Source: Phycisphaerae bacterium (lineage in GTDB: Bacteria > Planctomycetota > Phycisphaerae > Sedimentisphaerales > Anaerobacaceae). Taken from it: 35,656 nt of DNA. The notes below the pieces were generated by a model. That model worked only from the letters and a program-made list of their open reading frames with translations, made no database searches and was not told the DNA's origin. This document shows positions 3,279-18,311 of the stretch, one piece after another; position 1 is the stretch's first letter, and each line of letters begins with the position of its first letter. The stretch is from the NCBI GenBank assembly GCA_012744475.1, contig JAAYBV010000011.1:1-35656 (forward strand), written 5' to 3'. The position numbers and the translations under genes are program-made.

Positions 3279-3405
3279 TGAGATTGCCGCGGGTCCTTCC
3301 GCGATAGACCGCTTTCCGCAGTTCCGACCATCGGCAACCGCAAGGGTCGCCGATGCCACACATGCACCCCCCTGGCCCGGGTGCTTCACTTCGTTCAGCA
3401 TGACA
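3279..3405. repeat. Decayed repeat patches in intergenic 3208-3751
   Basis: The 543-bp gap 3208-3751 holds no convincing gene. Upstream of the intact mobile element, 3328-3362 carries a hairpin (catcggc at 3330-3336 pairing with gccgatg at 3350-3356) followed by ccacacatg. That resembles the right arm of the element at 3448-3631 and suggests an older nested copy. Bases 3384-3405 (cttcacttcgttcagcatgaca) resemble a short repeat I recall from intergenic DNA of many environmental genomes; I cannot verify that here. Bases 3641-3751 form the leader of the next gene. Confidence 0.4.
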
Positions 3406-3447
3406 TCAGGCGGAAAGGGCCGGTTGTGCTTTTGCGCAGTTGAGTAG

Positions 3448-3631
3448 GTGTCTGTGAAAATATCCTGGCAGCCGTGTGGCAGCGGCAAGCGCAGGCTTGC
3501 CGATGGTGATACGCGTGCCATCGAAGCCATCGGCATACTCCGCCTTGCTCTCCCGATGGCCATCGGGACCACTGCCACACATGGCGCTCCGTGGTGGAAG
3601 ACGGGCCTTGCCGCGAAATTCGCACAGACAC
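3448..3631. mobile_element. Non-autonomous mobile element, copy A: 9-bp terminal inverted repeats and a 9-bp target duplication
   Basis: The element is 184 bp. It begins GTGTCTGTG (3448-3456) and ends CACAGACAC (3623-3631), a perfect 9-bp inverted repeat that continues imperfectly to about 23 bp (18 of 23 matches). It is flanked on both sides, with no gap, by the 9-bp direct repeat gttgagtag (3439-3447 and 3632-3640), the signature of transposition. Inside are an outer stem (gtgtggcag 3474-3482 / ctgccacac), a left hairpin (ggcaagc gcag gcttgcc), a middle stem (gccgatgg / ccatcggc) and the 18-bp palindrome at 3551-3568. It is too short for a transposase and has no open frame with family features, so it must be moved in trans. 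A 9-bp duplication is known for several IS families (for example IS1, IS4 and IS256 relatives); which one is unknown. Confidence 0.85.
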
Positions 3632-3751
3632 GTTGAGTAGCGTGGCGACGGATTTGGCTTGCGTGGGACGCTGTTGGCGATGAGAATGCACCGCCGATGG
3701 TCCTCGTGTGATTGGCGCGTTTGGTTTCCTGCTGGTTCTTGGAGAGTGACG

Positions 3752-5002
3752 ATGAGACTCAAAAGAGCATGGGTCGTGTGGGCGGTGGTGACGTGGCTGG
3801 CGGCGTCGACCTTATGGGCGGCGGAAATCCCGTCGGCCCGGCCGGAAGAGGTGGGTTTGTCTTCGGCCAGGCTCGCCGAGATGCAGGCGGTCGCCCGGAA
3901 GATGGTGGACGAGCGGGAAGTGGCCGGCATAATCACCTTGGTGGCGCGGAAAGGCAAGGTCTGTCACTTCGAAGCCTATGGCTCGCGAGACCTGGCAGCG
4001 GGCAAGCCGATCCAGCGCGACACGATCTTGCGCTTCTACTCCATGAGCAAGCCGGTCACCAGTGTGGCCGCCATGATCCTGCACGAGCAGGGCAAGGTGC
4101 TGCTCGATGAGCCGGTCGAGCTGTACATTCCCGAGCTGCGCGGATGGAAAGTCCACGCCGAAGACGCGCAGGGCGAGCCGACTACGGTCGAGCCCGGGCG
4201 GAAGGTCACGGTGCGCGATCTGCTGCGGCACACCTCGGGACTGACCTACGGCATCTTCGGGGACACCCCCGTCGATCGGATGTATCGCGAGAAGGAGGTC
4301 CTCAGCGACATCGAGCTCAAGGAGATGGTCAAGCGGCTCGGCGAGATTCCGCTGCTGCACCAGCCGGGGACGACGTGGCATTACAGCGTTTCGACGGATG
4401 TGCTGGGGCACGTGATCGAACGCGCCTCAGGGCAGACGCTCGATGTCTTCTTCGCTCAGAACATCTTCAAGCCGCTCGACATGAGGGACACCGGGTTCTA
4501 CATCCCGAAAGACAAGCACGAGCGTTTCGCCGTGTGCTATGGTCCCGGTTCGAACGGCGGACTGGAGCCGACAAATGAACTGGGGAGCTACGCGTTTCTC
4601 GAACCGCGTGCGTTCCTGTCGGGCGGGGGCGGGCTGGTCTCGACGGCGCGCGATTACCTGCGGTTCTGCCAGATGCTGCTGAACAAGGGCAGGTTGGACG
4701 ACGTGCGGATTCTGCGGCCCGAGACGGTGGAGATGATGACGCGAGACCAGTTGCCGCCGGGGGTGTCGGTCGGCGAGGGCGTCGGTTTCGGCCTGGGATT
4801 CTCCGTGCGGTTGAAGCCCGATCCGAGCGGCGGGACCCGCGTGGGCGAATACGGCTGGTCCGGCGCCGCCAGCACCTTCTTCGCCATCTCGCCCGACGAC
4901 GAATCCATCGTGATGCTCCTGACACAGTACATGCCGTATTCGGAGAAGATTCCCGCCACGCTCAAGCCGCTGGTCTACGCCGCCTTCAACGGCCAGAACT
5001 AG
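3752..5002 (+). CDS. Exported serine hydrolase, beta-lactamase class C / EstB-like
   Basis: A 416-aa protein with an N-terminal signal peptide (VVWAVVTWLAASTLWAAE, cleavage near residue 23). The penicillin-binding/serine-hydrolase fold shows SMSK (S97 nucleophile, K100 general base), HYSVS where class C enzymes have YxN (here Y-S-V-S, as in EstB-type esterases), and YGWSGAAS in place of KTG. The family includes beta-lactamases, D-Ala-D-Ala peptidases and carboxylesterases. The altered second and third boxes favour an esterase or peptidase over a true beta-lactamase. Start ATG 3752 has GGAGAG at 3741-3746; upstream in-frame codons have no such site and lie in repeat-derived sequence. It stands alone, 110 bp downstream of mobile element copy A. 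Confidence 0.88.
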   Translation: MRLKRAWVVWAVVTWLAASTLWAAEIPSARPEEVGLSSARLAEMQAVARKMVDEREVAGIITLVARKGKVCHFEAYGSRDLAAGKPIQRDTILRFYSMSKPVTSVAAMILHEQGKVLLDEPVELYIPELRGWKVHAEDAQGEPTTVEPGRKVTVRDLLRHTSGLTYGIFGDTPVDRMYREKEVLSDIELKEMVKRLGEIPLLHQPGTTWHYSVSTDVLGHVIERASGQTLDVFFAQNIFKPLDMRDTGFYIPKDKHERFAVCYGPGSNGGLEPTNELGSYAFLEPRAFLSGGGGLVSTARDYLRFCQMLLNKGRLDDVRILRPETVEMMTRDQLPPGVSVGEGVGFGLGFSVRLKPDPSGGTRVGEYGWSGAASTFFAISPDDESIVMLLTQYMPYSEKIPATLKPLVYAAFNGQN

Positions 5003-13545: not shown

Positions 13546-13740
13546 GGGTGTGTGAAAACACCCGGACAGGTGTGTGGCAGCCTCAAGGCGCGGCCTTGGG
13601 GATGGCGGGTATGATTTGGCTTTGAATGTCCGGAGACGCCGACACTTTCTGCCATCCCCAAACGCCAAGGCGTTTGAGGCTGCCACACAGACACTTCAAC
13701 GGCTCAAGAATGCCATTGCCCCCAAGATCTGCACACACAC
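13546..13740. mobile_element. Non-autonomous mobile element, copy B: cloverleaf-like, no visible target duplication
   Basis: About 195 bp in the 369-bp gap 13472-13840. The ends gggtgtgtg (13546) and cacacacac (13732-13740) match the copy A termini at 7 and 8 of 9 positions. The outer stem is perfect over 15 bp: gtgtggcagcctcaa (13572-13586) with ttgaggctgccacac (13674-13688). Inside are a left hairpin (caaggc gcg gccttg, 13584-13598), a middle stem ttggggatggc (13596-13606) / gccatccccaa (13651-13661), and a right hairpin (aaacgcc aa ggcgttt, 13660-13675). The loop closed by the middle stem is nearly identical to that of copy C. No matching flanking duplication is visible, so the copy may be older or may have recombined. 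The remaining bases of the gap form the leader of the next gene. Confidence 0.75.
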
Positions 13741-18017: not shown

Positions 18018-18072
18018 CTGCGTCCGAGAACATGCAGCGAACCGGGCCGTGGGGCGGGATGTCGCGAGCCGG

Positions 18073-18291
18073 ACGCGTGTGAGAACATCCGGGCAACCGT
18101 GTGGCAGCCTCAAAACTCGTCCTGAGCGAAGTCGAAGGGAGCGTAGCCTTGGGGATGGCGGGCATGATCGGGCCTTGTATGTCCAGAGACGCTGACACTT
18201 TCGACCATCCCCAAGTCCTGCGGACTTGAGGCTGCCACCCAGACGCTCCAATGGGTCAGGAACGCCGGTGCCTTATAGCCTGCACAGACAC
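18073..18291. mobile_element. Non-autonomous mobile element, copy C: 8-bp target duplication and a nested repeat in one arm
   Basis: About 219 bp. The right end CACAGACAC (18283-18291) is identical to copy A; the left end is degenerate. The 8-bp direct repeat cgagccgg lies directly outside both ends (18065-18072 and 18292-18299). The outer stem is gtgtggcagcctcaa (18099-18113) with 18226-18240 (one mismatch). The middle stem is ttggggatgg (18139-18148) with ccatccccaa (18205-18214), and the right hairpin is aagtcc tgc ggactt (18213-18227). The left hairpin of copy B is replaced here by a longer insert containing cctgagcgaagtcgaaggga (18121-18140), a short repeat I recall from many environmental genomes. 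It fills most of the 392-bp gap 18018-18410. Confidence 0.78.
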
Positions 18292-18311
18292 CGAGCCGGC
18301 GGACAGCGGGA

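Follow-up and report, generated by a model that had tools for sequence, protein, structure and literature searches.

The 184-bp sequence at 3448-3631 of the window (the whole stretch of 35,656 nucleotides analysed here) is very probably a MITE that is moved in trans by an ISKra4-type transposase, that is placed facing a promoter and that carries a REPIN as cargo. In the mechanism which we propose, the transposase of an ISKra4-type IS (prokaryotic Mutator superfamily, p-MULT 4) would act on the MITE in trans. It would do so by recognising the similar terminal ~17-22 bp of MITE and IS, and it would make an 8-9 bp target duplication. The right end of the MITE would thereby be set facing a sigma-70-type promoter, ~26 bp upstream of the -35 box, with a gap of about 17-19 bp between the duplication and the -35. 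The interior REPIN, in which two REPs like those around the RAYT gene of the genome form an inverted pair, would be carried along as cargo. A second element, inserting where the distance to the promoter had placed the first, would give rise to tandem composites. The promoter phase and the interior REP pair both go beyond what had originally been claimed for this DNA.

A miniature element and a full-length relative

The element (type A, non-autonomous, plus strand) belongs to a genome of 5.75 Mb in 118 contigs, termed G000; its congeners are termed G001 to G005. The original prediction had described inverted ends of 9 bp and a 9-bp target duplication, all of them perfect, and both are there: GTGTCTGTG at 3448-3456 is answered by CACAGACAC at 3623-3631, and GTTGAGTAG stands directly outside both ends, at 3439-3447 and 3632-3640 on the plus strand. 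The inverted ends run on imperfectly to 23 nt (78%). The arrangement had also been called unlikely by chance. This is true of the combination together with the genome-wide copies, but not of GTGTCTGTG alone, which is not rare in the window (6 exact sites, and 14 sites at up to one mismatch against 7.9 expected). The case thus rests on the combination and on the copies elsewhere in the genome.

Such copies, for which a search with the same ends had been proposed, were found. The 184-mer has at least 42 matches in G000, itself included, which is a lower bound since 40 of 169 candidates were scored; the best other copy is 97% identical. Across 41 genomes, with up to 20 candidates scored per genome, it was recovered from G000 and, as partial matches only, from all five congeners, and from none of the 35 genomes of other genera. 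A left-end pattern matches 68 sites in G000 at up to two mismatches, compared to 2 for the reversed pattern. The right-end pattern matches 92 sites at up to one mismatch (54 of them exactly), compared to none for its reversal, and many of its 38 one-mismatch sites are left ends in reverse reading. Among the viral_contigs, the left-end pattern has no exact match, so no virus-borne copies were found there. Two further members lie in the window, both on the plus strand. The one at 13546-13740 has a REP pair inside and no intact duplication, and a -35-like TTGCGT starts 27 bases from its right end; the one at 18073-18291 is flanked by the 8-bp duplication CGAGCCGG (18065-18072 and 18292-18299), and a -35-like TTGCAA starts 21 bases from its right end (both hexamers placed by eye).

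Once junctions between tandem elements are removed, 56 distinct left and 56 distinct right flanks yield 31 exact duplication pairs, 25 of 8 bp and 6 of 9 bp (the latter counted by eye, with two junction rows left out). A shifted-window control, restricted to 8-mers, gave a mean of 0.08 and a maximum of 1 match over 114 comparisons. For 25 of the 56 left flanks the strict lists hold no exact partner. Eleven pairs enclose one element in one contig, and the other 20 join separate places, 19 of them between contigs. Pairs of this second kind are found because the assembly breaks inside repeats; indeed, many contigs end ~125 bp inside an element.

The search for a full-length IS, which had likewise been suggested, led to 1,516-bp ISs in G000, G003 and G005. 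Their ends read GTGT[CG]TGTGAARARATSCTGGC..ATCTGCAC[AG]GACAC, and each is flanked by an 8-bp duplication, so that the ISs and the MITEs alike show the 8-9 bp target duplication of the ISKra4 family. The G000 copy lies at G000:C50:113013-114528 (L133 1483-2998, minus strand) between copies of CACCTTGC, and the copies of the congeners are found at L119 3390-4905 and L132 1483-2998, both on the minus strand. In G003 the left end is followed by two overlapping frames and, 1,516 bp on, by CTAAAATCTGCACAGACAC, the whole being flanked by two copies of TGCGGCGG; the duplication in G005 is CGATCGGC. The left terminal region of the window element (3448-3469, plus strand) resembles the left end of the G000 IS, with GTGTCTGTGAARAWATSCTGGC as the shared consensus by eye, and its right terminal region GAAATTCGCACAGACAC (3615-3631, plus strand) resembles the IS right end AAAATCTGCACAGACAC.

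The transposases of G003 and G005 are 77% and 96% identical to that of G000. Of three models, NF033572 (ISKra4) matches the transposase best (E 3e-46 to 3e-47), followed by ISLre2 and ISH6. The score of 158 bits, or 162 with both frames joined, lies below NCBI's curated cut-off of 205 bits, and we therefore call the transposase ISKra4-like; against UPF0236 (PF06782) it scores above the cut-off. The three IS copies agree throughout in GADGF, VTDGA, a D-Y-x-H stretch and GPTE, which may represent the acidic catalytic residues and the C/D(2)H signature, an assignment that draws on general knowledge and on PMC3942029. The two frames overlap at CTTTTTCCCCCTCCGG in all three species and start 148 nt apart, so a +1 (or -2) shift is needed. 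The conservation of this overlap suggests that the transposase is made by regulated frameshifting, possibly as a programmed +1 shift or by slippage. A second ISKra4-like transposase, 40% identical, is encoded at G000:C46:97545-98669 (L137; open frame of 451 aa), and the end pattern of the MITE family was not found around it.

The 184-bp element therefore combines terminal inverted repeats, a target duplication and many copies with the lack of a transposase gene, and an autonomous relative with similar ends resides in the same genome (G000:C50:113013-114528). The copies, the duplications and the IS with similar ends lend strong support to the original proposal that a transposase-less sequence of 184 bp has transposed, and to its status as a non-autonomous transposon moved with target duplication. 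As judged from its sequence, the MITE is of the ISKra4 (UPF0236, prokaryotic Mutator) type, and we infer that the candidate enzyme which moves it is the ISKra4-like transposase of G000.

Copies of nearly full length match the window copy at 81-97% identity, and many 172-bp copies differ from it by one 12-bp gap. Given this identity and the many perfect duplications, much of the spread of the family looks recent. The insertion at the L112 locus of G001 appears to be shared by G000, with the duplication readable at 8/8 positions in G001 and at 7/8 in G000. This insertion probably predates the split between G000 and G001, and the family is thus probably older than that split. The empty orthologous site with one target copy that the original prediction had called for was not found in base-exact form, the congeners being only ~70-78% identical around the window locus. 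G002 has the orthologous gene without the element, but its intergenic DNA is too diverged for the target to be read. Nor was a base-exact empty site found at the L112 locus, where the gene content is different in G004 and G005 and the divergence too great in G002 and G003. The same locus shows a separate feature: at L112:2210-2285 a largely self-complementary insert of ~76 bp is present in G001 and G004, with ~20 bp in its place in G000 and G005, and it reads as another small mobile or deletable repeat. Moreover, upstream of the window element a stretch of 24-31 bp (window 3375-3405) recurs at several congener sites and is another dispersed repeat.

Phase and orientation relative to predicted promoters

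Downstream of the window element lies a gene for a serine hydrolase of the PF00144 (Beta-lactamase) family (3752-5002, plus strand), a name that implies no drug resistance. Its putative promoter (3659-3687, plus strand) consists of a -35 box TTGCGT (3659-3664), which begins at position 28 of the right flank, a 17-bp spacer and a -10 box GAGAAT (3682-3687). The match is weak (score 6.7), and here as elsewhere the boxes are predictions, scored with generic weights set by hand. The G002 orthologue of this gene, which has no element, is preceded by a similarly placed hexamer pair, as seen by eye.

We then scored the flanks of the whole family. On the right, 56 of 59 flanks were used, three being left out as junctions to a second element; the 56 include that of the full-length IS and that of L098, an element read from its other end. 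On the left, 57 of 58 flanks were used, two of them being B-A junctions (the duplication count above is without both junctions and used 56). Stacked without gaps, the right flanks are T-rich at positions 20-23, read TTG across 27-29 and show a TATAAT-like box that covers 50-55. Counted by its first base, TTG falls on 27 in 23 flanks and on 28 in nine, compared to a mean of 1.1 elsewhere, and the -10 match starts at 50 in 19 flanks and at 51 in 13, compared to 0.6 elsewhere. Both boxes are in phase in 28 of the 56 right flanks, at other offsets in at most 3, and in 2 of the 57 left flanks. The best predicted -35 starts 25-29 bases from the element in 41/56 right flanks but in only 5/57 left flanks (Fisher p 7e-13). 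In the remaining 15 right flanks the best promoter lies outside 25-29, in four of them at 20-21. Insertions with the -35 ~20-21 bp from the right end, rather than 27-28, and similar box spacing form a minor group (L148, L154, L161, L004 and the window member at 18073-18291).

Orientation is biased as well. According to gene calls by a codon-usage script trained on 55 long reading frames from the window and 13 loci, the first predicted gene points away from the right end in 50/57 cases (5 opposite, 2 none), whereas on the left side it points away in 22/57 and toward the element in 35/57 (right versus left p 4e-9; the flanks used, 57 per side, include junction flanks). Moreover, ten elements from other species with up to two duplication mismatches show the predicted -35 at 26-27 in eight cases. 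Among these eight are two full-length ISs, that of G003 with a score of 10.9 and that of G005 with a weak one of 5.8. The two elements out of phase are L120, which is next to an IS, and L263; the L112 element of G001 failed the end pattern. The full-length IS of G000 lies within a predicted coding region and has a weak promoter match (6.6), so that the phase in G000 rests on the MITEs. Thus the hallmark of promoter targeting, a constant distance between the insertion and a sigma-A promoter downstream of it, is found here for predicted promoters, and we infer that the transposase reads the promoter or the RNA polymerase bound to it.

The phase might instead reflect selection, with insertion being wide and survival being confined to sites just outside the promoters of a compact genome, but we consider this unlikely. 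Insertions inside genes would be lost, and ISs commonly pile up between genes. Selection would account for such an intergenic position; it does not account for a spike at one or two bases (the best predicted -35 starts at 27 in 25 and at 28 in 10 of the 56 flanks), and it leaves the strong orientation bias (50/57) unexplained. Three other species and two full-length ISs show the same phase, and the literature (PMC3942029) ties it to particular transposase lineages.

Placement by the transposase would add to a short list, since few bacterial transposons are known to pick their target by promoter. A single genome with ~40 natural insertions in register (41/56 flanks), for which three congeneric species and two full-length ISs serve as independent checks, makes the proposed contact between transposase and RNA polymerase directly testable. 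The right ends are natural promoter markers in a lineage known here from metagenome bins only, and the stacked flanks yield a predicted -35/-10 consensus (TTG, 17 bp, TATAAT-like) from sequence alone.

Promoter targeting as such is known. Guerillot et al. (2014, PMC3942029) report it for TnGBS/ISLre2 and for part of the ISKra4 group, with 8-9 bp repeats and an orientation set by unequal ends, and term promoter-based target specificity unique. The promoter-targeting lineage of ISKra4 has a transposase motif between domains N1 and N2 (PMC3942029, fig. 8), and in the ISMich2 group the transposase is encoded in two frames with a -1 shift. ISLre2 and ISKra4 are moreover found preferentially 50-250 bp from genes (PMC9208149), which fits the positions of the elements described here. 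These elements resemble the p-MULT 4 members of the ISKra4 group, reported from Planctomycetes among other phyla, in their UPF0236/ISKra4-like transposase, their 8-9 bp duplications, their terminal C and their fixed distance upstream of sigma-A-type promoters (PMC3942029). Unlike the ISKra4 group, however, the mobile population here consists mostly of non-autonomous elements of 170-230 bp. The transposase differs too, in being split over two overlapping frames, as reported for the ISMich2 group, and in its score below the cut-off. Orientation also differs, being nearly fixed here, whereas in the 13 promoter-targeting ISs of PMC3942029 the repeats are near-perfect and promoters are predicted at either side.

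An oriented insertion with the right end next to the promoter is shared with TnGBS and ISLre2 (p-MULT 3; PMC3942029), which are large conjugative elements or ISs, mostly of Firmicutes. There the duplication lies 15-16 bp upstream of the -35 (PMC4701971), and here ~17-19, a difference of 1-3 bp that depends on counting. The idea that our distance exceeds the published value by one helical turn was dropped, since PMC4701971 measures from the duplicated sequence and not from the repeat end. RUP, NEMIS and ERIC MITEs (PMC3733652) are likewise short, TIR-bounded, without coding capacity and often beside genes. Promoter-phased insertion and REPIN cargo set the present elements apart from them.

Among the open-licence papers listed as matches, none describes such an element, as judged by titles and the beginnings of abstracts. 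Thus the original claim that the family is undescribed holds for the miniature element within the literature searched. The ISKra4 parent family and its promoter targeting are already in print (PMC3942029). What is new, within the same literature, is therefore an ISKra4-type MITE that is inserted in phase with promoters and in one orientation, that carries a REPIN and that forms mobile tandem composites.

The REP interior

The interior of the family follows the layout GTGGCAGC-stem-GATGG ... CCATC-stem-GCTGCCAC. In the window copy the left REP, GTGGCAGC-stem-GATGG, occupies 3476-3506 on the plus strand (the loose pattern matches from 3465), and the right REP, inverted and diverged in this copy, occupies 3527-3578 on the minus strand and completes a REPIN-like pair; the bounds of both are by eye. 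Two REPs are recognised in most A copies, and only one in the window copy. In the copies inspected, both arms usually have the same stem type, which is GGCAAG-like in A and resembles CTCAAG in B and related types. None of 200 shuffles folds as well as the strand of the window copy, with a z of -4.4 as DNA and as RNA.

REP heads number 300 in G000, compared to 1 with a reversed-pattern control. The matches listed give the places of 100 of the 300; of the first 30, 12 belong to elements in which an ISKra4-type end was recognised, and the other 18 are outside such elements. G000 has a single RAYT-like Y1/HUH transposase gene (L213 1387-1986, on G000:C22; PF01797, 32 bits with a cut-off of 23), which lies between REPs of the type GTGGCAGCGGCAAGC..GCTTGCCGATGG, two of them upstream and one, inverted, downstream. 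In G002 there are two RAYT genes, each flanked by inverted REPs of the G000 skeleton, which also surrounds the RAYT gene in L244. A RAYT relative in G004 (L246) has one weak REP match, and REP searches around the relatives at L247, L248, L250 and L251 gave no match.

The elements thus hold what makes up a REPIN, two inverted REPs that match RAYT-flanking REPs (the right one being diverged in the window copy). The mobile unit, however, is bounded not by REPs but by ISKra4-type ends with duplications, so that the REPIN is the cargo and not the whole element. To our knowledge, a free REPIN has neither DDE-type ends nor a target duplication. The inverted REP pair, its GTGG head and the Y1/HUH RAYT gene between inverted REPs are all as in REPIN/RAYT systems (Bertels and Rainey 2011, PMC3116915; De Nocera 2013, PMC3733652), with the difference that here the pair is enclosed in ISKra4-type ends. 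Such cargo links two small bacterial repeat classes that are usually treated separately.

Short elements of ~60-76 bp have similar ends and no REPs (L097, with a degenerate right end, L108 and L109), and L108 has a perfect duplication. By eye, their sequence fits the loss of everything between two CTG triplets. They likely arose by loss of the REPIN; capture of a REPIN by short elements is a conceivable alternative origin. The elements of G002 hold another palindromic pair, TGTCA...TGACA. Within 400 kb this palindrome forms two units, both at most 260 bp from a loosely matched ISKra4-type end, so that its independence as a REP is unsupported. Under the tentative merger account given below, this different pair would mean that hairpin cargo may have been captured more than once.

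Could the RAYT (Y1/HUH) transposase move the element via its REP pair, the outer ends being incidental? The one RAYT gene of G000 does lie between REPs of the element's kind, and many REPs lack ISKra4-type ends (18 of the 30 heads examined, of 300). Yet the 8-9 bp duplications and the fixed outer ends fit a DDE transposase, the same ends are shared by the REP-less short elements, including L108 with its perfect duplication, and the elements of G002 carry a different palindromic pair. A RAYT as the main mover is thus largely refuted and in our estimate highly improbable, but it may explain how the REPIN got inside. Least credible of all is a derivation from an IS256-family transposon of G000: IS256 is related to Mutator and makes 8-9 bp duplications, and G000 has two partial IS256-family transposase matches (L009 on C43 and L010 on C100, apparently cut by contig ends), but the outer sequences next to these genes are unlike the MITE ends (GGATATCTTTCGCACATTG / AATGTGCGAAACATCC) by eye, and IS256 insertion is reported as likely random and not promoter-phased (PMC3942029). 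IS256 was rejected as the parent, as its ends, again compared by eye, differ from the MITE-type GTGTSTGTGAAAA ends.

Tandem composites

The preferred reading, an ISKra4-type MITE moved in trans with a REPIN as cargo, extends to composites of two elements. A type B element (229 bp where complete) precedes ten of the type A copies inspected, from which it is separated by the spacer GCCGAGCGA in nine cases and GCAGAGCGA in one. B left ends pair with A right ends across contigs, for example through the duplications CTTGGTGCC (C91/C87), CCTTGTTT (C50/C14) and GTAGCCAT (C22/C61). Since the duplications at the outer ends of B and A pair in this way, the B-A pair travels as one unit of ~410 bp. In C67, C80, C97 and C112 of G000, the duplication on the right is matched on other contigs instead of on the contig's own left side, and these contigs are likely misjoined inside B-A repeats. 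Duplications missing around B-A composites might have been held against transposition, and this objection is answered by the apparent misjoins and by the pairing of outer ends across contigs. A simple account of the composites would be that a second element inserted at the promoter-measured position of the first and left one target copy between the two.

A broader account, which we put forward tentatively and regard as possible but on balance doubtful, is that two systems have merged. A REPIN copied by RAYT would have taken on ISKra4-type ends, which would bring its hairpins to a set position ahead of dozens of promoters, and repeated insertion at that position would build composites that move as a unit. 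Often this position separates the 3' end of one gene from the promoter that follows, and the hairpins brought there may terminate or insulate adjacent transcription units. Finally, a short element of G001 lies 14 bp from the end of an IS, in the same orientation.
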